Source: an uncultured Gemmiger sp. | GTDB lineage: Bacteria > Bacillota > Clostridia > Oscillospirales > Ruminococcaceae | DNA length: 64,000 nucleotides | Assembly (NCBI GenBank): GCA_944388175.1 | Contig: CALXHR010000006.1 | Location: 33,654-97,653, forward strand | Direction: 5' to 3' | In this document: in pieces, positions 53,023 through 64,000 of the stretch | How the letters are laid out: every line of letters starts with the position of its first letter | Numbering within the stretch: the first letter of the stretch is position 1 | Made by a program: the position numbers and the translations under genes | The notes under the pieces: model-generated | Database searches by the model: none | Seen by the model: only the letters and a program-made list of their open reading frames with translations | What the model was told of the DNA's origin: nothing

Positions 53023-53781
53023 CTACGCTTCCCGATACGCATGCACCACATATCGCGCAAGGCCGCTTCCGTATGCGCTCCAGCATGTGGAAAGGGTAAG
53101 CACCTGCGCACCGTCCGGCGCCTTGATGCCGGTGTCGTACTCCGACGCTTCCCTCAGCCCTTGTAAAAAAGCGTCATATTCTTCCCCCGCCGTGCGGTCT
53201 GTTCGGTAAAGCGCTTCCTGGTCGGTGGCTGTATGGCAGGAGAAAATGCGGTATGTCTCGGCGCCCTCTGGCGTGTACAGAGTAAAATACGGATATTCGC
53301 GGTAAAAATCCTCGTCGGTGTAGCGCAGCAGCCCGCTGAACATGCTGCCGTCGTGCAAATTGTGGCCGTAGATCACACGGTACAGCCCTGCTTCACCGCC
53401 AGCCGACGCGGCAAAAAACAGGCATCCCGCCGGGGAGTCGCCGCCGTCAAAGCCGCGGTGCAGGTAGGTCTGGTTATCAGTCGCCTGCACAACCGGCAGC
53501 GACAGGTCCAGCCCCGGCATTTCCAGCCATGCGGCAGTGTCCGGGTTGATGGCCTGCAGCGCCGCAAAGTCGATTTCCCCGGCCGGTTCCTCTTCCGACG
53601 CAACGTGCGCGGCGACCTGCCGCAGCTCTGTATAAAGGCGGCTGCTCTTACAATACTGGTACTGCGCATAACCGAACGCCCCCAAAAATCCCAGCCCCGC
53701 CAGCAGCAGCGCGGTGCTCAGCACCAGCCACAGCCGGGAAGGCGGCCGGAGCAGGCGTGCTCTCGTTTCCTCTGTCATCAT
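53023..53781 (-). CDS. Sortase, class B type (second sortase)
   Basis: This 252-residue protein has an N-terminal membrane anchor (about residues 18-40) and a sortase barrel. The catalytic His is in VIYGHNLHDG, the Cys in VLTLSTC and the Arg in LARYVV. Length and TLSTC are typical of class B-like sortases. It overlaps the upstream adhesin gene (ATGATGA), so the two work as a pair. The adhesin ends in VQTGD, presumably its substrate motif. Whether it polymerises or only anchors is unknown. Confidence 0.9.
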   Translation of the reverse strand: MMTEETRARLLRPPSRLWLVLSTALLLAGLGFLGAFGYAQYQYCKSSRLYTELRQVAAHVASEEEPAGEIDFAALQAINPDTAAWLEMPGLDLSLPVVQATDNQTYLHRGFDGGDSPAGCLFFAASAGGEAGLYRVIYGHNLHDGSMFSGLLRYTDEDFYREYPYFTLYTPEGAETYRIFSCHTATDQEALYRTDRTAGEEYDAFLQGLREASEYDTGIKAPDGAQVLTLSTCWSAYGSGLARYVVHAYREA

Positions 53782-55673
53782 CTGTCACGCAACCCCAATC
53801 GTAAATAGGCCGGTATGTGTGCACGCCGGTGGTAATAAAGCGCCGTCCCTGCCGCGCCGCAAAGGCAGGCGATTCCCAACGCCAGCCATACCCACATCCA
53901 GGGGTTGTCGCCCGTCTGGACGCGGTCCGGCGGGGTATTGCCCGGCGGGGTATCCTCCGGCGGCGGCGTGCTGCCGGGCGGCGGGGCGGAGGGCGTTGGG
54001 CTCGGCGGCGGCGTCTTGGGCTTGTCCTCCATCTGGATGGTATGGTAACCGTGGTCCGGGATGCTCCCGTCCGCGTTGAACACAAAGGTAATATCCGCCG
54101 CCGTCTCGTAACCATCGGGCGCGCTTTCTTCATGCAGCACATACGTGTGCCCCGCCACCAGCGCGGCGCCGCCCTCCGTCCAGCCGGTGATGACATACGG
54201 CTCGGCGCCGGTGGTCCAGCGGGCGACCTGCGTGCCGGCCGTAAGGTCGGTCAGTGTCAGCACCGCGCCGGGCAGCGGGTCGCCGTTTTCGTCCACCTTG
54301 GCAAATTTCACCTCCAGCGGCGCGTCGGTCACAACCAGCGTATCGCCCTCCAACGCGCCGGTATCTCCATCCAGCTGGAAAGTCAGGTCCTCCCGCAGCG
54401 TAAACGGAATATCCAGGCTGACTGCATAGCCGGCCGGGGCCAGCGTCTCGTGCAGCAGAAAGCGGCCGGGGTTGAGTTCCACCTCGTGCGGCGTCTCGCC
54501 CGAGGTCCATTGGTCGATCAACGTCTGCGCGCCATCGGTGGACAGTACATACAGCTCGAGCTTCGCGCCGGGAAGTTCGTCGGTTCCTGTCAGCGCCCGC
54601 TTGCTGATGGAAACCGTTCTGGTGGTGGAATTGGTAAAGGTAAATGTTTTACCGTCCTCGCTGGACGTCAGCGTTGCGGTATAGTCCTCCAGGCCGGTCA
54701 TGTCCTCCTCCAGCCAGCAATCGGTCATACCGCTGCGGATTGTGAACTTGGCGGTTGCATTGTCCCCCGCAAGCGTGCGGGTCGCCGTCTTTTTTACACC
54801 GTTCTCCGTGTAATGCAGGATAATGGTCGCGTCGGGATGTTCCTGCCCGCCGGTCTGCCAGACCTTCCTGACCAGAATATCGCCATAGGTGCTGATCGCC
54901 CCGGTCATGTCCGCGGCCGACTCCACCATGTGGATCGGGAATACCCAGTCGTCACTGCCCGGCACATAGTAGCCGGGGACGCCGGGGATGCGGATTTCCT
55001 GGATTACTTCGCCCAGCGTGATACCGAGCGAGAAATACCCGGGGCCGGCATAGGTGTCCGCCCCGATGCCGTTTGGAAAGTACAGGTACAGCGCCTCGCC
55101 CTTTTGCGCAAACGAGACCCCGCCCTCCGAGTAGTTGATGCGGAAATCATCGGGGCAAAAGTCGAGCAGCCAGCCGATGCCCAACCGCAGATAACTGCTG
55201 TCGGCCGTGGTGTTTTCGACCATCAGCGAGGAATCGTCCAAGATGCCCGTTGCGCCGGGCGCGACCGTCTCGCCATTTAAGTAAGCGGTACCGTTGGGGT
55301 AGGTCACATGGGTCGAGGCCGCCTCGTCCAACTGTGTTGGGTCGTCCGCCGCATAGGCGCGGCCGCACAGCGCAAAACTGAAATTCAGGGAAGCCGTATC
55401 CCCTACCTGCATTTCCAGCGGCTTTCCGCTCTGTTGCATTTCCTGCAGTTGCGCGGGGGTATATTCCTGTCCGTTGACTGTCAGTGTGATCGACCGGACG
55501 TATTGCATCAGGTCGATCTCCCCGTAAGCCGCCGGGTCGTAACCGGGGTAATAGTAGGGATCCTGTGCGGCCTGCGCGTGCGCAGGCAGGGCAAAAAGCG
55601 CACACAAAAGCAGAAATCCCCCAAAGGCCACCCCCTTTTGCAGCAGGCCCCGTATTCTCTTTTCGATTGTCAT
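53778..55673 (-). CDS. Sortase-anchored SpaA/Cna-B-type surface protein
   Basis: This 631-residue protein starts at ATG 55673 with AAAGGA upstream. A signal peptide ends near ALPAHAQA. A ~270-residue N-terminal domain is followed by a Cna-B-like domain (ILVRKVW...) and two SpaA-type domains with LHETLAPAGY and LHEESAPDGY. Each of these keeps the glutamate that drives Lys-Asn isopeptide bonds. A Pro-rich wall-spanning linker leads to the sorting signal VQTGD, a hydrophobic helix and a basic tail. It is probably an adhesin or pilus subunit served by the overlapping sortase. Confidence 0.9.
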   Translation of the reverse strand: MTIEKRIRGLLQKGVAFGGFLLLCALFALPAHAQAAQDPYYYPGYDPAAYGEIDLMQYVRSITLTVNGQEYTPAQLQEMQQSGKPLEMQVGDTASLNFSFALCGRAYAADDPTQLDEAASTHVTYPNGTAYLNGETVAPGATGILDDSSLMVENTTADSSYLRLGIGWLLDFCPDDFRINYSEGGVSFAQKGEALYLYFPNGIGADTYAGPGYFSLGITLGEVIQEIRIPGVPGYYVPGSDDWVFPIHMVESAADMTGAISTYGDILVRKVWQTGGQEHPDATIILHYTENGVKKTATRTLAGDNATAKFTIRSGMTDCWLEEDMTGLEDYTATLTSSEDGKTFTFTNSTTRTVSISKRALTGTDELPGAKLELYVLSTDGAQTLIDQWTSGETPHEVELNPGRFLLHETLAPAGYAVSLDIPFTLREDLTFQLDGDTGALEGDTLVVTDAPLEVKFAKVDENGDPLPGAVLTLTDLTAGTQVARWTTGAEPYVITGWTEGGAALVAGHTYVLHEESAPDGYETAADITFVFNADGSIPDHGYHTIQMEDKPKTPPPSPTPSAPPPGSTPPPEDTPPGNTPPDRVQTGDNPWMWVWLALGIACLCGAAGTALYYHRRAHIPAYLRLGLRDR

Positions 55674-56011
55674 CAAGGGTCCTTTCACCAATTTGACATT
55701 TTCGCTTTTCTTGGGTTTTATCGTTGCAACGCCAAGATTCCCTCTTGGCATTCTTGCGTTCCGGATTTGCGAATCCCTGGCAGCCTGCTCTGGATAAACA
55801 AGTGTTCCTCTGCCTAATCACGCCGTATATCCGGTTCCCTTTCCGGGGTCCCGGCTCGCTTAGGCTCTTCCTGCTTGCCCGCTCGATGTTGGCAATGATC
55901 CCTATTCCCCAATCTATTGTGCGGGAACCACACGAAATCGCGGCATACGCCCACATCAAAATTGCCTGCCAGCCATTCGTTTCAAACGGCAGGCAGGCAT
56001 TTTCAACCGCA
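55674..56011 (-). other. Intergenic leader with two closed RNA domains and a terminator-like hairpin
   Basis: Transcribed toward the adhesin gene. A hairpin TGCCTGCC/GGCAGGCA (55963-55999) ends the preceding pilin gene. Then come two stem-closed domains: D1 55812-55865 (GCCTAA/TTAGGC) and D2 55727-55798 (TTTATC/GATAAA). D2 encloses GGATT-CGCA-AATCC and GCCAAGA-GGGAA-TCTTGGC hairpins. No open frame fits. D2 contains GGAACGCAA after a hairpin, faintly like class I c-di-GMP riboswitches, but other conserved parts are missing. Confidence 0.5.
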
Positions 56012-56758
56012 TTACTGCTGGTTGTCCTGTTTGGTATTACGTTTTTTTGCCACGATCAGCACCGCAATGGCAACCGCCGCCGCAACCAGCACCACCGCCA
56101 GCAGCGTCAACGGCAGGGCGTCGCCGGTCTGCGGGATGATGCCCAGCAGCGGGGCCGCCGTGGGCGTAGCCTGCACGGGGTCAGGCTCCGGTGTGGGGGT
56201 GGGGGTGGGCGTCGGGGTAGCGGCCTGGCCGCCGTCCGTAGCGGGCGTCGGGGTCGGCGTCGGCGGGGCGTAGGTGTTCAGGAACGCCAGCTCGGTGCTC
56301 TTGTTCTCCTGGGCGGGGTTCTGGATACCGGCGTCGTACGCCGTCACCGTATAGGCAAGCGTCAGGTTGCCGTCCGCGTCCTCGGTATTCGTCACCTGCA
56401 CCTGCACGGCATAGACCGTATCGTCATAGGTCATATGGCTGGTCTCGCCGGCCGTCTGGCGGATGAGGTAAAAGTAGTCGCCCGGCGCGGTATAGTGGAT
56501 GGCAAAGCTGCCGCTCTCGCCGCCGCGCAGCAGCAGGCTGCCTTCCTCCGGCATCGGTGTATCGGCGTCGGCGCCGTCGGGCAGCGCAATGGTTACTTCA
56601 AACGCTTCGGCGTGGTCACCGTTCAGCTTGACCGTTACGGGGATCTGCGCGTCGCATTCGTACCCGGCGGCAAGCGCCCGCACAGGCATCAGCAGCAAGG
56701 CCGCGAGCAGCACGGGAAGGACCAGCAATCCGCTCAGTTTCCGTATCGCTTGGTTCAT
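56012..56758 (-). CDS. Basal minor pilin, FctB-like, proline-rich tail
   Basis: This 248-residue protein starts at ATG 56758 with AAGGAGG ten bases upstream. A signal peptide ends near RALA. One Spy0130/FctA-type Ig domain (IPVTVKLNGDHAEAFEVTIALPDG ... YLIRQTAG ... ELAFLNTY) is followed by a Pro-Thr repeat tail, then IPQTGD, a membrane helix and a basic end. The proline-rich tail and canonical LPXTG-like motif resemble FctB, the pilin that fixes streptococcal pili to the wall. It lies just downstream of the pilus sortase, as in the FCT locus. Confidence 0.88.
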   Translation of the reverse strand: MNQAIRKLSGLLVLPVLLAALLLMPVRALAAGYECDAQIPVTVKLNGDHAEAFEVTIALPDGADADTPMPEEGSLLLRGGESGSFAIHYTAPGDYFYLIRQTAGETSHMTYDDTVYAVQVQVTNTEDADGNLTLAYTVTAYDAGIQNPAQENKSTELAFLNTYAPPTPTPTPATDGGQAATPTPTPTPTPEPDPVQATPTAAPLLGIIPQTGDALPLTLLAVVLVAAAVAIAVLIVAKKRNTKQDNQQ

Positions 56759-56837
56759 GGGTTTGGTACCTCCTTCAAAATGGGCAGGGGTGGGGCGGGC
56801 GCGCGGCCGCGCCCCGGCCCCGGTCCACATTGGTGTT

Positions 56838-57584
56838 CTAGCTCATGCGGTCCAGCCGCCCAAAAATGACCACCCGGCCATTGGTTTGCGCCTCCGCACA
56901 GGTCGAAAGCCCGATCACCTTGTCCTGCGGCGTCACGCCGATCTCCCGGCTTTGCACCGCGATCTCATCCACATAGTACAGCAGTTCGCTCACGTCGCCC
57001 GGCGGCTGGCCGTGCGGGTCGTAGACCGTGCTGTCGAAGGCGTCCACCTGCACGCAGGCGAAAATCTCAATGGCATAGGTCGCGTCGGGCAGGTAGAGCG
57101 TCCCGGTGGGGTGCGTGGTAAAGTAATCGGTGTTGACAAACTCGACGACGTCGCCGAACATACCGCCGTTGTCCATATGGTGGCCGTACACAAGGGTGTA
57201 GGGGTCGGACAGGTCGCGGGCGTTGTCGCTGTCCAGGAAGATGGACCCGGAGAGCGAGAACTCGCCGTAGACGTCCTTGTTGACGTACTCCATGTCGGTC
57301 TCGCCGATGACGACGGGGTAGTCGATATGCGTATCGTCGATGGTCAGCCAGCCCAGCACGTCGGGGTTGATGGCCGCCAGCTCCTCCAACGTCGGGTTGG
57401 AGTCGGGGTCCCCCGCCGCAGGCTTGAACTGCAGCAGATCGCTGTCCAAAAAAGCGCCGTTGAACACCATGGCGGTGTCCCACAGGGCGTAGCCGCCGTA
57501 CAGCAGCATCAGCACGATCAGCGCCGCTGCAAAGATACTGACCAAACGGTCGCCGGCACGCGCCAGCCTGGCCGCAGTGTGCAA
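56838..57584 (-). CDS. Pilus sortase, class B fold (SrtC1/Spy0129-like)
   Basis: This 248-residue protein starts at TTG 57584 with AAAGGAGG nine bases upstream. It has an N-terminal membrane helix, and the catalytic set is visible: His in YGHHMDNGGMFG, Cys in IGLSTC and Arg in NGRVVIFGR. Position between the backbone pilin and the FctB-like pilin matches the S. pyogenes pilus sortase, which despite its SrtC name has a class B fold and cleaves xVPTG-type motifs. Substrates here are predicted to be VSPTG and VAPTG. Confidence 0.91.
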   Translation of the reverse strand: MHTAARLARAGDRLVSIFAAALIVLMLLYGGYALWDTAMVFNGAFLDSDLLQFKPAAGDPDSNPTLEELAAINPDVLGWLTIDDTHIDYPVVIGETDMEYVNKDVYGEFSLSGSIFLDSDNARDLSDPYTLVYGHHMDNGGMFGDVVEFVNTDYFTTHPTGTLYLPDATYAIEIFACVQVDAFDSTVYDPHGQPPGDVSELLYYVDEIAVQSREIGVTPQDKVIGLSTCAEAQTNGRVVIFGRLDRMS

Positions 57585-57743: not shown

Positions 57744-58853
57744 TCAGTCCTCGCGGCGCTTACGCAGGAAGACGAAGCAGCCGGCGGCCGCCACGACGAC
57801 CAGCAGGGCGTACGGGGCAATGTCCATCACGATGCCGGTGGGGGAAACAGCGTTACGGTTGTTGGTGCAAGTGGTGGCAACCGCATTATCCTCAACCTTG
57901 CCACCCTCAACCGTCAGCTGCGCGCCGTCAGTGTTCTGGTCGTTATCCACGTCAAAGGAAACTTCATAGCCCTTATCGGTAGAAGAAGCAGCATCTTCCT
58001 TGATGGTGTAAGCACCCGCATCCAGGCCCTTGATGGTGATGGTCTGCCCGTGCGTCAGCGTAAAGGTGTTGCTCGTTTTGCTCAGCGTAACAGCCGGGGT
58101 GTTATCGCTGTAGTTGCCGGTGAAGGTTTTGCCCTCGGGCAGGGTTTCGATCGTGAACGTGAAGGTGTCGCTGTGGTCACCCATGGAGCCAGCGACCGTC
58201 TTGGTGACCTTCAGGTCGCCAGCCTTGGACTGCAGGTTTTCGTCGAGCATGTAGTAGTTGGTCCAGGTGTCGATTTTTTTGCCGTCTTTCTTGACATAGG
58301 CGCCCGTAATGACGCATTCGTCACTTACGTTCTCGACCATCAGGTACAGGTCCATGGACCCCGTCTTGTCCACATAGTCATCGCTCGGCAGGGTGCCTTC
58401 GTCGATCTGGTACTTATAGATGCCGGGGTTCTCGAACGTATCCGTCGGCAGGGTCAGGGTAACGGTAGCGGTAGCGATGTTATACTGCTCGTTACCAATC
58501 GTCTCTTCAGAGGGGGTGCCGAAATCCGCGCTCGCAATGCTGCCCGCGGTCGTAACGCCAGTGCCAATGCCGGGGTTCACATCATATTCCTGCTTAGCAG
58601 TACCGCCATCCACGAGGGTCTCGTTGGTGACATCCGTGACCGGATTGATCGCAAACGTGAAGTTTGCATCCGAAGGCATGTTGACGTTGGTCGGCATGAC
58701 CAGTTCTTTTTCGATGGTGATCTCGGTCAACTCCGTGCCGGGCGTACCGGTGGTGCCATTCGTCGCCGAAGCCGGCACGGCGGTGAGGGACGCCAGCATA
58801 GCGGTGGCGACGAACGCGGTCGCAATGCGGCCAAGGTTCTTTTTCAGGTTCAT
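57744..58853 (-). CDS. Backbone pilin, FctA/Spy0128-like
   Basis: This 369-residue protein starts at ATG 58853 with AAAGGAAG upstream. A signal peptide ends VPASA. It has two Ig-like domains: the first starts EITIEKELV, and the second has VTKTVAGSMG, YTIKED and TTCTNNR. These keep the Lys-Glu-Asn pieces for self-made isopeptide bonds. The sorting signal is VSPTG, followed by a hydrophobic helix and RKRRED. It is the likely pilus shaft. Spy0128 has two such domains, similar length and EVPTG, so the match is close. Confidence 0.9.
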   Translation of the reverse strand: MNLKKNLGRIATAFVATAMLASLTAVPASATNGTTGTPGTELTEITIEKELVMPTNVNMPSDANFTFAINPVTDVTNETLVDGGTAKQEYDVNPGIGTGVTTAGSIASADFGTPSEETIGNEQYNIATATVTLTLPTDTFENPGIYKYQIDEGTLPSDDYVDKTGSMDLYLMVENVSDECVITGAYVKKDGKKIDTWTNYYMLDENLQSKAGDLKVTKTVAGSMGDHSDTFTFTIETLPEGKTFTGNYSDNTPAVTLSKTSNTFTLTHGQTITIKGLDAGAYTIKEDAASSTDKGYEVSFDVDNDQNTDGAQLTVEGGKVEDNAVATTCTNNRNAVSPTGIVMDIAPYALLVVVAAAGCFVFLRKRRED

Positions 58854-58924: not shown

Positions 58925-59493
58925 ATGGGTTGCCGCATCCGCGGCGGGTGGGCGTTGGCCTTGCGGCAACGTTCCGGGGCATTGGCCGTTTGCCTTGCCC
59001 TGTAGGGCGGGGTCTTGACCCCGCCGTGGGCGTTTGCCTTGCGGCAACGTTTCCGGGTCGTTTCCCGTTTGCGTCGCATTGTAGGGGCCGCATGTATGCG
59101 GCCCGCAAACGTTGCGGTGGTGGGTGTTTTCGGGTCGGCCGGGCGTTCGCCTTGCCCTGTAGGGCGGGCGATTTCGCCCGCCGAACCGATGATTTTTTTA
59201 AAATTTTCAATGTGCGGCGGGGGCAAGACCCCGCCCTACAATTTGGGGTGGACGCATACGCAACCCGGGGGACGGTCGGCCGGGCGTACCCGGCGGGCCG
59301 CATACATGCGGCCCCTACAAACCGGGGTAAACACCGGGCAAACCGGGGAACGGGTGATAACGGGGTGAACCCCGGGGCAAACACCGGGCAAACCCGGCAA
59401 CGGGTGGTAACGCGGGGTTGGCGGCGGGCGTGAACGCCCGCCCTACAATTTGGGGTAAACGCGTATATGTCCCATGGGACGGTCGGCCGGGCG
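58925..59493. repeat. Cluster of six REP-like palindromes (TGTAGGG hairpins)
   Basis: No gene is seen in this stretch. Hairpins occur at 59006-59025 (GGCGGGGTC arm), 59085-59104 (GGGCCGCAT arm) and 59163-59182 (GGCGGGCG arm), each preceded by TGTAG. They occur again at 59215-59239, 59295-59314 and 59421-59440 with the same three arms in the opposite orientation, each followed by CTACA. A 45-base tandem duplicate (around AACACCGGGCAAACC) lies at 59325-59420, and GCCTTGCGGCAACGTT is repeated at 58958 and 59036. Such units are dispersed repeats of gut Clostridia genomes (inference). Confidence 0.75.
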
Positions 59494-60426
59494 TCACAAA
59501 TTGCTGCGGCGCGCTACCGTGATGACCTTGCCCTTGACCTCGCTTTGTTTGACCGCGCCGAAATACCGGCTGTCGCGCGCGCCTTCGCGGTAATCGCACA
59601 GGACGAAAAACTCGTCCGCGGCCAGGGTCAGCGGGTAGGCGGGGCCGTTTTCGTACTTGGGCGTAGTGTAGAAGATGTTGTTCTCCAACACGGTGCTGCC
59701 GTTGACGACGAGCGTCGCCTGGTCGGTGACTTCGACGGTATCGCCGCCGCGGGCCACGATGCGCCCCACGTACTGCTGGCCGTCTTTTTCAAACACCATG
59801 ACGTCGCCGTTGGCCCAATCGTCGGCCAGGCGGTAGTACAGCAGCAGGTCGCCGGCCGAGATGCGCGGCGCCATATCGTCGTTGTGCATCGGCGTGACGC
59901 CGAACGCAAACCCCAGCAGCCCCGCCAGCATCACAATGATGGCGGCGAGCTTGACCAGGAACGCGGCGATGTCCTCGGCGTCGGCGCAGCGGCGGCGCCG
60001 CTGGGCAATGACCTCGGCCGGGGTAAGCGGCGCAGCGGGCGCGCCCTTGCCGCGCCGTTTGGCGGGCGTTTCGGCGGGTTTGGCCGCGGGCGGCGCGGGC
60101 CGGGGCCGCGGGGTGGGCTGCGCCGTTGCCGGCTTACCCGCAGGGGCGGGCGGTTCCGGTTGGGGCGCAGGCGGTTTTGCGGGTTGTGGGGCCGCGGGCG
60201 GCGCGCTTACTTTGGGGAAGCTGCGCGTGATGCGCGTGTCGCCGCTGGTGCGGCGGATGCGCTGCCCGGCGGCCGCCCCGTCAGGCGGGGCGGGTTGCGT
60301 GGGTTGCGGGGCCGCGGCGGGTTGCGGGGCCGCGGCGGGCTTAGGCGGTACCGGCCTGTCGCTGATGTTGGCGTGCGCCGGGCGCCGAATCGTCCCCTGC
60401 GGGCGCTGCGGTTCAGCCATAGGCAT
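59494..60426 (-). CDS. sipA: SipA-type signal peptidase-like pilus assembly factor (catalytically dead)
   Basis: This 310-residue protein has about 150 Pro/Ala-rich cytosolic residues, a membrane helix (about 151-177) and a type I signal peptidase fold. The catalytic Ser of the S-M-x-P motif is replaced by Asp (DDMAP, Asp184). The general-base Lys is Gly (YVGRIVARGGD, Gly221). Streptococcal SipA has the same Asp and Gly replacements and is needed for pilus polymerisation. Start at ATG 60426 or 60420; the frame overlaps the upstream gene. The long N-terminal extension is unlike SipA of streptococci. Confidence 0.85.
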   Translation of the reverse strand: MPMAEPQRPQGTIRRPAHANISDRPVPPKPAAAPQPAAAPQPTQPAPPDGAAAGQRIRRTSGDTRITRSFPKVSAPPAAPQPAKPPAPQPEPPAPAGKPATAQPTPRPRPAPPAAKPAETPAKRRGKGAPAAPLTPAEVIAQRRRRCADAEDIAAFLVKLAAIIVMLAGLLGFAFGVTPMHNDDMAPRISAGDLLLYYRLADDWANGDVMVFEKDGQQYVGRIVARGGDTVEVTDQATLVVNGSTVLENNIFYTTPKYENGPAYPLTLAADEFFVLCDYREGARDSRYFGAVKQSEVKGKVITVARRSNL

Positions 60427-60640
60427 CACCGCCGGGGCGGCCCGTCAGGCGGGCAAGCTGTTGGTCCCGCTCGTCCAGCAGGGCCTGGTAGTAGGCGGCC
60501 TGCTCGTCATACACCTGCTGGTACATGCGCTGCAAGGCTTCGAGCTGCTTCCAGACGTCGCTTTCGTCCACCCCGCCAAAGGTTTTTTTGCGGAATTTCA
60601 TGGCGGAGAGCGCCTGCGCGACGTCCTGCATGGTACGCAT
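60413..60640 (-). CDS. Small coiled-coil protein with DivIVA-like motif
   Basis: This 75-residue protein has an ATG at 60640 (a second ATG at 60631). Six bases separate it from the adhesin stop. After a basic KFRKK comes TFGGVDESDVWKQLEALQRMYQQ, which matches the DivIVA/GpsB N-terminal pattern (F-x-G-G-x-D-x-x-D-V-x-x-x-L) that binds membranes and forms a coiled coil. A helix follows with YQALLDERDQQLARL. It overlaps the sipA gene by 8-14 bases. It may position pilus assembly at curved or septal membrane. Function not known. Confidence 0.65.
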   Translation of the reverse strand: MRTMQDVAQALSAMKFRKKTFGGVDESDVWKQLEALQRMYQQVYDEQAAYYQALLDERDQQLARLTGRPGGDAYG

Positions 60641-60646
60641 AGGCGG

Positions 60647-63600
60647 TTACCCCTGCCAGCGGCGGCGACGGCGCGCCACGACGCTGCCCAGCAGCGCCGC
60701 ACCGGCCAGGAACGCCGCGCCTACCATAAGCGCGAACGGCGCGGTGTGGTCAGACTCCAGCCCGGTGGGGGCGACAGCCTTGCGCTGGTTGGTGAAGGTG
60801 ACGGTGCCGACATCCTCATAAGTGCCGCTTTCGGGGATAGTGATTCGGGCGATGCCCCCCGATCCATCAAAGCACTTGCCAATCATCTCATCATTGAGGT
60901 TATCGCTCTCGAACGTGGGCCCCAAAAGCGTGTAACCGGTACCCTTGTCGGTTTCCGTGACGGTGATCTTGTACTCGCCTTTCAAATTGCCGAAGGTGAC
61001 CGACTTATCGCCGCGGAGCTCAAAGGTTTTCGCGGCCTTGTTGATTTTCCCGTCTACTTCCGCATCCGTCGAGCTGATGGTGATCTTTTCCATAACGTCG
61101 GGAGTGACGTCGTTACCATTCTTGTCGGTCACATTAAAGCTGAACTTGAACCAGTCGTTCTTGCTGCCCATGCTTTCGGTGACCTTTTTTTCGATGGTCA
61201 CGGTCTTGTAGGTTTCGTAAATGTTTGTAACTTTGACATTACCAGCATCATCCGCCGTCAAGGTGACTGTCGAAGAACTCCCGATGAAGTTGTACTCGTC
61301 AAAATAGGCTTCCGGGAAACCATTCTCGATCGCCGTCGTATCTTCCGACACCGTGTAGGTGCCGACAGGCAATCCCCGAATGGTCAGCGAGTTTGCACCC
61401 GTTACAGACACCCGGGCCGAATAGACGCCGTTCACCTCGATGAAGTTGACCGTATTCTGCGTGCCGCCTTCGACAGTGAATTCAGCGTTGTTCGCAAGCT
61501 TGGCCGTATCGACGCCCGCGCCTGCCGTAACGATGAAGGTGAAGGTTGTGTTGTTGGCTGCGTCCGCCACTGCGTTTCTCACAGAGTCACTGCCGTCGCA
61601 GTAGACCTCCTTCTTGATGGTCAGGTCGTTGTTGTCGCGGGTGTAGGCGTTGGTGATGTTGACGGTATTGTTGCCGTCCAGCGTGACCGTAACGTCCTTC
61701 TCAAGGCCGGTGGTTGTGACCGCATACCCGTCTACGTTCTGGCCGCTTTCGGTGACCGTGTAGGTACCCGGCACAACATCCTCGATGGTAACGGTATAGG
61801 TGCCGCCCTCCCCCGGTGTAACATCTTCCAGCATTGCCGAGTAGCTGGCGGAAGGATTCTCGGTATCGGTCAGCGTAAAGGTCAGGGCGCTGACCAGCGC
61901 CGCCAGCTTCTGCGGCTCGTCCTCCAAACCGGTGATGACCTTGTGGATCGTCACCGTTGTCGTGGTCGGCGTGTAGGTGTTGGTGAAGGTGACGGAACGG
62001 GATTGCCCCGCCGGCAAATCAAACTGTTGTGTCGTAACTGCTTCGCCCGTAAGCGTCGTTTCACCACCCGTGACCTGGTAGCTTGTCGCCTGCTGGTAGT
62101 TTTCAACCGCACCGCCAGTCTCGGTTACGGTCAATTTTTGTGAACTGTTGGGGCTAAGCTCCGTATAAGTAAAGTCGACACTCGCCGTAAAAGTCTGGCC
62201 CTGCCGGGTAAAGTCTGCCGCCGCGAGAGTTTCTGTACGCTCCCCAATCTGGAACGTCACGGAATAATCCTGCGGAATGGCATCCAGCCCCGTAACCTTT
62301 TTGGTGACAGTGACGCGGGACTCGGTGTTTTCCAGCGGCAGGGGGTCTTTACTGAAATACACATTGTCCAGGCAGTTGCCCAGCGAGATCGAGCCCATAC
62401 CACTCGACACCGAAACGAAGAAGAAGCGGGTCAGGTACTGGTCTTCGGGCACGGTGTACGGCGTGCCGCCGTTCTCGCTGTCGTAGTGTCCCCAACCGCG
62501 CACATTCGACGTATTATCATTATCTCTGTAATACGGCTTGTCGCGCACGTTGTCGAGAACGTAGGCGCCAGATTCTTCGTTTTCGATCCGCTGTAAAACT
62601 CGGCGGATCGCATTCGCGGTGCTGCCAGCGTTTTTCAGCTCCTTTGCCCAGTAGTCGGCGTTTTCTGCCGGCATAATGACCATTGCCATCTCGTCCCAGA
62701 GGTCCGGGGCATCCCAAGTGCCATCTTGTCCACGGCGCTGGCGGGCCACATGGTCGAACTGCCAGTTCAGCGTCGTACCGGGGATGGTCATAACGTCCTG
62801 ATACAGCGTACCGACGGCTTCACAGTTCAACTCGGCAAACTGTTCGCCTTCCGAAGCAACGGGAACACCGTAGTTTTGAACCGTTTGACTATTCCCACTG
62901 GGTCGAATGATCTCAATGTCCTGGCCGGGTTTGTTTTGAAGGGAACCGGGGCCGGTCGTTTTCCAAATCAGGCCCTCCACGCCCATCTCGTACTGCTTAT
63001 GACCGGCAGGAGATTCAAAGCTGCCGTTTTGCAGTTCGATATAATATGGTACCTGCACGGGGTCTGCTTCGTAGGTCTGCGTGCTGTCCCCCGTGGTCAC
63101 TGTGGCGGTGACTTTATACCAATAGCGCTCGTCGTCTTGCACATTGGCTGCATTGGGGGAGGCATCCTGTACGACGTCGACGTAGACGCCATTCTCGGCC
63201 ATGTTATAAATGTAGTTGCCTTCACTGCCAGAGACAGCAATGCGTTCGACCGGTATCCAATCGCTTGTACCGTTCAGGCTGCGCTGCCACGTGTAGGTGA
63301 TCACTGCATCGTCCGGGATGGACACAGTATCCTGGAAACGCGCAGTGAACCGGCCGTCATCTGCGACGGTCTCCTCGATATAGAGGTCGCCTTCCTGCTC
63401 GGCTTCCTTTTCGGTGCGGGTATAGATGAGGTAGAGGTTGGCGGTTTGGGTGCCACTATCCCCCCCTATCCAACGATCCAAATACGTCAGGGACCGCTGC
63501 TGGCTACTGCCGTTATAGAAGTTGTAGTAGTAGTAGTGGTTGCCTAGCCAATCTGTTTCGGAACTCGCACGCAGCGAAGTCACGACACTGCCGCCTGCGT

Positions 63601-64000
63601 TATCCATGCGCGCTTCTTTATAGGTGTAAACATCAGTGTCGGTTTTATAACTGCCGACAGCCCAGTCCGCAAAGGTCAACGTATTGTTGTTGGTCAAACT
63701 TATCTCTTGCGGGATGAGCTCTCCAAGACTGATGACCGCGCCGTCCTCATCCACACAGTAGACTGTCACATCAAAGTAGCTGCCCCAGTAGATGCGGGAG
63801 GCACCGCCTTCCGCATAGGTGCTGATCCCGTCGTTCACCGCCTCGGGTGCGTTCGCTGCCGGAGCCTGGTTGGGCTTGGCGGCCTGCACGTCGCCGGAAG
63901 TGCTGTCAGAAGTCACGGTGCTGTCGCTGGACGTGCTGTCAGAAGCCGCGGTACTCTCGCTGGACGTGCTGTCAGAAGCCGCGGTGCTGTCGCTGGACGT
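60647..64000 (-). CDS. Tip adhesin / large pilin (partial, N-terminus beyond window)
   Basis: At least 1117 residues are visible; the frame is open to the right edge. Next to the edge there is a Ser/Thr/Asp repeat, then an N-terminal region, and a jelly-roll-like domain (NGSFESPAG to GTLYQDVMTIPGTTLNW) resembling carbohydrate-binding modules. Four Ig-like pilin domains follow, each starting with a Lys strand (VTKKVTG, IHKVITG, IKKEVYC, IEKKVTES), with TVTE/TVSE glutamates and FTNTY/VTNIY-type ends. The C-terminus is VAPTG, a hydrophobic helix and RRRRR. Its position before sipA matches the Cpa tip adhesin. Confidence 0.88.
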   Translation of the reverse strand, partial: TSSDSTAASDSTSSESTAASDSTSSDSTVTSDSTSGDVQAAKPNQAPAANAPEAVNDGISTYAEGGASRIYWGSYFDVTVYCVDEDGAVISLGELIPQEISLTNNNTLTFADWAVGSYKTDTDVYTYKEARMDNAGGSVVTSLRASSETDWLGNHYYYYNFYNGSSQQRSLTYLDRWIGGDSGTQTANLYLIYTRTEKEAEQEGDLYIEETVADDGRFTARFQDTVSIPDDAVITYTWQRSLNGTSDWIPVERIAVSGSEGNYIYNMAENGVYVDVVQDASPNAANVQDDERYWYKVTATVTTGDSTQTYEADPVQVPYYIELQNGSFESPAGHKQYEMGVEGLIWKTTGPGSLQNKPGQDIEIIRPSGNSQTVQNYGVPVASEGEQFAELNCEAVGTLYQDVMTIPGTTLNWQFDHVARQRRGQDGTWDAPDLWDEMAMVIMPAENADYWAKELKNAGSTANAIRRVLQRIENEESGAYVLDNVRDKPYYRDNDNTSNVRGWGHYDSENGGTPYTVPEDQYLTRFFFVSVSSGMGSISLGNCLDNVYFSKDPLPLENTESRVTVTKKVTGLDAIPQDYSVTFQIGERTETLAAADFTRQGQTFTASVDFTYTELSPNSSQKLTVTETGGAVENYQQATSYQVTGGETTLTGEAVTTQQFDLPAGQSRSVTFTNTYTPTTTTVTIHKVITGLEDEPQKLAALVSALTFTLTDTENPSASYSAMLEDVTPGEGGTYTVTIEDVVPGTYTVTESGQNVDGYAVTTTGLEKDVTVTLDGNNTVNITNAYTRDNNDLTIKKEVYCDGSDSVRNAVADAANNTTFTFIVTAGAGVDTAKLANNAEFTVEGGTQNTVNFIEVNGVYSARVSVTGANSLTIRGLPVGTYTVSEDTTAIENGFPEAYFDEYNFIGSSSTVTLTADDAGNVKVTNIYETYKTVTIEKKVTESMGSKNDWFKFSFNVTDKNGNDVTPDVMEKITISSTDAEVDGKINKAAKTFELRGDKSVTFGNLKGEYKITVTETDKGTGYTLLGPTFESDNLNDEMIGKCFDGSGGIARITIPESGTYEDVGTVTFTNQRKAVAPTGLESDHTAPFALMVGAAFLAGAALLGSVVARRRRRWQG
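63893..64000 (-). repeat. Ser/Thr/Asp repeat inside adhesin coding sequence
   Basis: Tandem units of about 33-36 bases encode variations of STSSDSTAASD. Three to four copies are seen and the tract continues beyond the window. A likely extended stalk or glycosylation target, and prone to copy-number change. Confidence 0.75.

Follow-up and report, generated by a model that had tools for sequence, protein, structure and literature searches.

The DNA analysed here (termed the window) is a stretch of 64,000 nucleotides from an uncultured Gemmiger sp. that carries on its minus strand an FCT-like pilus operon with a class B sortase. The sipA-like gene in the focus of this work belongs to this operon, together with genes for pilins and further surface proteins (Table 1). 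The gene for the large adhesin-like protein is cut by the end of the contig, which stops where the window stops. In the FCT region of Streptococcus pyogenes the gene order is cpa, sipA, fctA, srtC, fctB (PMC4049620, in excerpt). The window operon resembles that order with one gene added: an adhesin-like gene, sipA, a major pilin gene, a class B sortase gene and a further pilin gene follow each other in both, and the sorting signals are of the PTG type. Elsewhere in the genome a second pilus locus (L003/L159) has its own copy of the gene pair formed by the sipA-like gene and the small ORF at 60413..60640, with the same Asp/Gly replacement, the small ORF and a cytosolic N-terminus of 205 residues (automatic start call). 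This means that the pairing is not due to chance. REP-like palindromes of the TAGGGGCCGCAT..ATGCGGCCC and TGTAGGGCGGGGTCTTGACCCCGCC types are clustered at 58948-59494, in the interval that separates the sipA-like gene from that for the major pilin. Genome-wide, the TAGGGGCCGCAT..ATGCGGCCC pattern is matched 69 times in forward and 85 times in reverse orientation, and its reversed control not at all, with up to 2 mismatches allowed and some sites counted on both strands.

Table 1. Features of the pilus operon and of the sipA-like gene (positions within the window)
Feature	Position	Strand	Basis
SpaA-domain surface protein/pilin	53778..55751	minus	PF17802
FctA-domain pilin, sorting signal IPQTG	56012..56830	minus	PF12892, C-terminus
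Class B sortase	56838..57584	minus	TIGR03064, 177 bits (cut-off 153.75)
Major pilin candidate, DUF7601, sorting signal VSPTG	57744..58853	minus	Pfam, C-terminus
SipA-like pseudo-signal-peptidase, coding sequence	59494..60426	minus	PF10502, SipA 4n31 profile match, AlphaFold core, Foldseek
Gly221 codon, position of catalytic Lys	59764..59766	minus	Alignment
Asp184 codon, position of catalytic Ser	59875..59877	minus	Alignment
Juxtamembrane segment PLTPAEVIAQRRRRCADAED, proposed docking helix	59971..60030	minus	Frozen motif, helix model
Pro/Ala-rich cytosolic N-terminal extension, 133 residues	60022..60420	minus	Composition, charge; boundary chosen by us
Mini-DivIVA-like protein, 75 residues	60413..60640	minus	Sub-threshold Pfam DivIVA, hhalign, model
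Large ancillary pilin/adhesin-like protein, sorting signal VAPTG	60647..64000	minus	DUF7601 above, SpaA below cut-off

The reading frame of the sipA-like gene spans 59494-60429 on the minus strand, stop codon included, and offers two candidate ATG codons, at 60426 (MPMAEP, giving 310 residues) and at 60420 (MAEPQ, giving 308 residues). Third-position GC of its core is 0.89 and coding-like. An S26 domain is found in residues 159-303 (PF10502, 65.3 bits against a cut-off of 22.9). When the PDB was searched with a profile of 14 relatives, streptococcal SipA (4n31) was matched with 148 bits (2e-42), whereas no true signal peptidase exceeded 63 bits. The AlphaFold model, which covers the last 184 residues with a mean pLDDT of 91, retrieved 4n31 at rank 1 in Foldseek (E 1.3e-13, 42% identity, 1.7 A), with signal peptidases ranking below. 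Since 4n31 outscores the signal peptidases in the profile search and ranks first in the structural one, the window protein is assigned by profile and predicted structure to the SipA-type factors, closer to SipA than to the catalytic signal peptidases. An earlier sequence-only reading had called the product a dead signal peptidase akin to SipA and had proposed alignment and structure prediction as a check; both analyses bear it out, with neither Ser nor Lys at the dyad columns of an S26 fold and with a model closest to 4n31. With type I signal peptidases (TIGR02227, SpsB, LepB) the window protein shares the fold, and it differs from them in the missing dyad and in reaching at most 63 bits to solved members. 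The NCBIfam equivalog model for signal peptidase I (TIGR02227) nevertheless scores the dyad-less protein with 90.2 against a cut-off of 47 (59497-60420), so that model-based annotation would probably name it an active enzyme. The standard family model thus counts dyad-less SipA-like proteins as signal peptidase I.

At the two catalytic columns of the alignment the Ser and Lys of active type I signal peptidases are absent from the window protein, and it is classified as non-catalytic from its sequence. Asp184 and Gly221 stand in their place, exactly as numbered by the sequence-only reading from the ATG at 60426, and the window protein has Tyr where S. pyogenes SipA has Lys83. The same Asp/Gly replacement in an S26 fold is seen in S. 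pyogenes SipA/LepA (4n31, 4k8w), and it had been put forward as an argument for conserved function. The shared pair is real, but the argument drawn from it carries less weight than that reading gave it. We surveyed 112 distinct S26 proteins, with rows of identical last 160 residues merged, and term those beside a mini-DivIVA-like ORF linked. Ser/Lys is kept in 50 unlinked rows and in one linked row (L133). The remaining 61 proteins show D/G (38), D/C (6), G/G (4), S/G (4), A/G (2) and, once each, D/A, Q/G, D/L, T/R, N/G, S/R and Y/T, and seven further S26 proteins from another family show D/L (6) and D/A (1). None of these non-Ser/Lys proteins retains Lys, and Asp is favoured yet the pair drifts; Asp is over-counted in the set from the genome-contig scan, as one of its two search patterns required Asp at the Ser position. 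Because of this drift across SipA-like relatives the Asp/Gly pair was rejected as a functional signature and is itself not the evidence for conserved function, for which the resemblance to SipA in profile and fold as a whole is better evidence. The loss of the dyad is ordinary for the SipA family, and the linkage to a partner gene is the new part.

The operon setting recurs in other genomes. In a scan of named genomes, which may have left out the record of the window itself, the six closest matches belong to Subdoligranulum, Gemmiger and Candidatus Egerieicola, and the order mini-DivIVA, SipA, pilin, class B-type sortase, FctA pilin was found in all ten loci with a mini-DivIVA gene (L076-L085). 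In Ruminococcus-type loci of the same scan SipA adjoins the sortase and a mini-DivIVA gene is absent. Counting L076-L119 as the SipA loci, with L120-L131 not counted as such, 42 of the 44 have a sortase gene on the same strand no more than 3.5 kb downstream; in the other two (L107, L109) the sortase frame overlaps by 131 and 154 nt. Among seven sortases taken from different loci class B was the best family for every one, and six pass the class B cut-off. Where SipA immediately precedes the sortase, the sortase frame is in many loci longer, mostly 415-550 residues, and in Ruminococcus albus AR67 (L105, 8383-9750) the class B sortase beside SipA has a C-terminal FILTED domain (NF052597). The idea that plasmids serve as a reservoir of the gene pair was rejected: three lepB records were S26-similar, the one opened (H1) contained no pilus locus, and the plasmid records gave no match to the small protein.

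Directly upstream of the sipA-like gene lies the small ORF for 75 residues, the stop codon of which overlaps the ATG at 60420 (ATGGCTGA). Within the genus its product shares 78-84% identity with eight other copies and only 32% with the copy in L011. The Pfam model of DivIVA matches eight of eleven members of this small family, all below the cut-off (best 6.6e-4), and for the 75-residue protein the score of 15.4 bits stays under the gathering score of 28 for PF05103. Comparison by hhalign with genuine DivIVA from related genomes gave an E-value of 2.6e-4, a probability of 42% and a score of 24.4, to be compared with 16.7 for the best of 40 column shuffles, so that the similarity of the profiles exceeds chance. 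The predicted structure (pLDDT 86) consists of a short helix, a loop and a long helix. This is the topology of DivIVA itself. With this model Foldseek returned no match at E<=0.001, and none of the eleven listed hits was DivIVA or GpsB; neither of the two was found by a profile search of the PDB with the small protein. Genome searches with its profile gave weak matches to coiled-coil proteins of greater length, next to which no S26 gene was found; of nine such matches that were scanned five are DivIVA above the Pfam cut-off and four are not. The small protein thus shares with the N-terminal domain of GpsB/DivIVA the F..xFGGxxxxDV register and the helical model, and differs from it in having 75 residues only and in lacking a significant Pfam or fold match. 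With moderate confidence we consider that it is probably a minimal DivIVA/GpsB-type domain. In L023/L154 (G078:C1) a Ser/Lys S26 gene adjoins an ORF for a coiled-coil protein with FKAGLCSGYDEAQILDYLRQL that looks DivIVA-like by eye and has no match to the A4 profile.

Genes of the mini-DivIVA kind are rare and patchy in their distribution. Searches by sequence or profile gave matches to the small protein in 8 of 61 relatives. On the level of the order 10 of 394 genomes contain a match, five of them of the SipA-linked kind; on the level of the class it is 11 of 391, with three S26-linked (G000, G1172, G1249), and on the level of the phylum 5 of 398, with two S26-linked (G000, G679). Within single families the matches amount to 1/10 in that of G679, 1/13 in that of G1172 and 8/130 in that of G1249.

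Strong matches to the mini-DivIVA-like protein are located directly upstream of an S26 gene wherever neighbouring DNA is present; L008 ends at a contig edge and its neighbour beyond the match is missing. The two frames overlap in 26 of 28 pairs, a number that partly reflects our start rule, which accepts a start as far as 30 nt ahead of the small ORF's stop and so favours overlap; L047 has a gap of 8 nt and L049 has no called start. On the S26 side the linkage is accompanied by a short motif, [VI][IL]xx[RK][RKMFI], e.g. TPAEVIAQRRRR, within the 32 residues before the membrane helix. It occurs in 20 of 21 linked proteins (the miss is L048) and in none of 91 unlinked ones, and shuffled segments match the expression at 5% and 2%. 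As the expression was composed after viewing the derivation loci, L133, L138 and L139 included, it was frozen and then tried on newly drawn genomes. There the motif was present in all seven linked proteins, six of which are one lineage related to L139 of the derivation set. It was absent from all 28 assessable unlinked proteins, which were drawn from 29 of 42 listed places (the 29th, L171, is cut at a contig edge; 12 were not fetched; L168, the window, was left out). Collapsed to lineages this gives 2/2 versus 0/28 (Fisher 0.0023). In the core model residues 10-47 of 184 form one helix that comprises the juxtamembrane and the transmembrane part (H10-47, AlphaFold), which means that the motif is predicted to extend the transmembrane helix into the cytosol. 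The linkage is neither universal nor bound to a lost active site. Among the 112 proteins 41 dyad-less ones have no small ORF beside them, so that the partner would not be needed for SipA function generally, and the linked protein of L133 keeps Ser/Lys, so that the partner is not tied to the loss of catalysis.

The Pro/Ala-rich extension behaves differently. Counted from MAEPQ to the chosen boundary it contains 37 Pro and 30 Ala, carries a net charge of +14 and is followed by some 17 juxtamembrane residues up to the membrane helix. Relative to S. pyogenes SipA, this extension and the juxtamembrane motif would be additions of the window protein. Taking as start the first start codon met when reading on from 30 nt upstream of the small ORF's stop, eight of the nine linked proteins in the window's genus have a cytosolic part of 108-205 residues and the ninth, L011, has one of 39; for 18 of 19 linked proteins outside the genus it measures 33-75 residues, L049 having no called start. 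Among 63 unlinked S26 rows its median is 38, and five exceed 100 residues, with a maximum of 228; a long N-terminus as such is therefore not unique to the window's lineage. The sequence of the extension varies freely within the genus, although a string T[RH]ITRSF recurs in five of nine linked proteins (L002, L003, L007, L009, L012) and is absent from L005, L006, L011 and L013. Being confined to the genus among linked proteins and freely varying, the extension probably does not serve as the principal site of partner binding and was rejected as a conserved one. As judged from these sequence comparisons it is the juxtamembrane helix and not the extension that tracks the small partner ORF.

For the distribution of linkage a tree was calculated from 91 S26 proteins on the extracytoplasmic part only, with the motif columns excluded; of the Ser/Lys rows the sample took in only the first 14, and of the 29 new unlinked rows only the first 8; L171, with its upstream DNA missing, was labelled unlinked in the tree and in the clade test. 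The 28 linked rows require six changes on this tree, or five without L171, and a single clade of linked proteins is rejected (p-AU 7e-20, L171 as unlinked). Among four phylogenetically independent pairs, motif and linkage agree in 3.8 cases on average and oppose each other in none, for which the sign test gives p 0.125; four pairs cannot reach significance. Gemmiger formicilis (L087) has a SipA with neither mini-DivIVA nor motif. A natural experiment is offered by L149 (G679:C45:36000-50000), where one pilus operon contains a pair of S26 genes. There a 244-residue protein that matches the mini-DivIVA profile (E 3.5e-10) and has no Pfam match at 0.001 is followed by a Ser/Lys S26 protein with the motif, and the second S26 protein, SipA-like with Ser/Arg and without the motif, is encoded away from the DivIVA-like gene. 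Two nearby ORFs of L149 resemble a response regulator and a sensor kinase by eye.

According to the excerpt of PMC4049620, S. pyogenes SipA is essential for pilus polymerisation and had no detected peptidase activity, its variants D61A and D61S were without effect, and in pull-downs the recombinant protein bound neither pilin nor sortase. GpsB is described as an adaptor that binds membrane-proximal Arg motifs, with the ligand motif SRxxR(R/K), in the cytosolic mini-domains of wall enzymes (PMC6335420, in excerpt). This ligand motif is absent from the juxtamembrane segment of the window protein, which has an Arg cluster only, so that an interface with the mini-DivIVA-like protein would differ from that of GpsB. 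Two further reports place the signal peptidase SpsB of S. aureus enriched at the septum (PMC11898559) and the deposition of E. faecalis pili away from new septal wall (PMC10107303). Among the open-access papers searched, none combines GpsB, DivIVA, sortase and pili; the text joining DivIVA, pilus, sortase and signal peptidase concerns, in the part available, SpsB and not such a gene pair.

Computation gives the kinship with SipA, the lost dyad, the operon with its class B sortase and the co-occurrence of mini-DivIVA and motif. We think it fairly likely that the window protein is a SipA-type pilus factor which has lost its dyad, aids the class B sortase and docks via its juxtamembrane helix on the mini-DivIVA-like protein. 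The membrane-anchored signal-peptidase fold without dyad would help the class B sortase to polymerise pilins, and its cytosolic end would dock on the 75-residue protein through the helix continuous with the transmembrane segment (TPxEVIxxRRRR). The mini-DivIVA-like protein may dimerise by its coiled coil and sit on the inner face of the membrane, and SipA, sortase and pilins could thereby be gathered at particular membrane sites. The Pro/Ala-rich extension would be a lineage-specific, flexible and basic tether that is dispensable for the core function of the family. Docking, dimerisation, membrane placement and spatial control are what we infer by analogy with the known adaptors. Because the putative adaptor also pairs with at least one Ser/Lys S26 protein in a pilus operon (L149), a wider scheme can be put forward tentatively: a minimal DivIVA-type adaptor might partner pilus-linked S26 proteins in general, the pair might recruit class B sortase assembly to chosen membrane sites, and SipA might be the non-catalytic form of a general S26-placing device.

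The window protein could instead be an ordinary SipA orthologue, with the small ORF and the motif hitch-hiking with the operon and not binding each other. The 41 dyad-less proteins without the small ORF would fit such a history, as would the number of only four independent pairs and the fact that operons can move as blocks. Yet the linked proteins are scattered on a tree from which the motif columns had been left out, the motif does not occur in L086, L087 and L092, which are unlinked rows close by, and of two S26 genes in the single operon of L149 only the linked one has it; hitch-hiking appears rather unlikely to us. That the protein still works as a peptidase via another pair of residues is highly improbable: the fold is kept, including the cleft-bearing domain (the model is close to 4n31), but no Ser/Lys is found at the dyad, the position of SipA Lys83 is occupied by Tyr, the replacement residues drift and no activity was seen with SipA itself (PMC4049620, in excerpt). 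Decay of a signal peptidase gene into a pseudogene would account for the lost dyad and the low complexity of the extension, and hardly for open frames in two paralogous loci of the window's genome and in L076-L081, six loci from named genomes that are 78-84% identical, for conserved synteny or for the coding-like third-position GC (0.89); we give this explanation very little credence. The protein belongs to the SipA kind, as a variant that probably has a DivIVA-type partner together with a matching cytosolic helix. A recurrent companion gene of SipA and a matching short cytosolic segment would offer a concrete partner and a concrete site; if this is true, division-type scaffolds would be linked to pilus building, and the recurrence of the pair in other bacteria suggests that such scaffolds may direct where pili are built.

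As to the site of contact, the first reading had regarded the extension as a novelty that may bind the small coiled-coil protein. The neighbour stands as a likely partner, but binding through the extension is improbable. The string T[RH]ITRSF in five of nine linked proteins of the genus speaks for it, and TRxxR loosely recalls the GpsB ligand motif SRxxR(R/K) (PMC6335420, in excerpt), yet the string is lacking in L005, L006, L011 and L013, and the N-termini are short in L011 and in 18 of 19 linked proteins outside the genus. In L010, L048, L049, L082 and L138 it is the mini-DivIVA-like frame that may carry an N-terminal basic/Pro-rich stretch while the N-terminus of SipA is short, as if the tether had switched between the partners.
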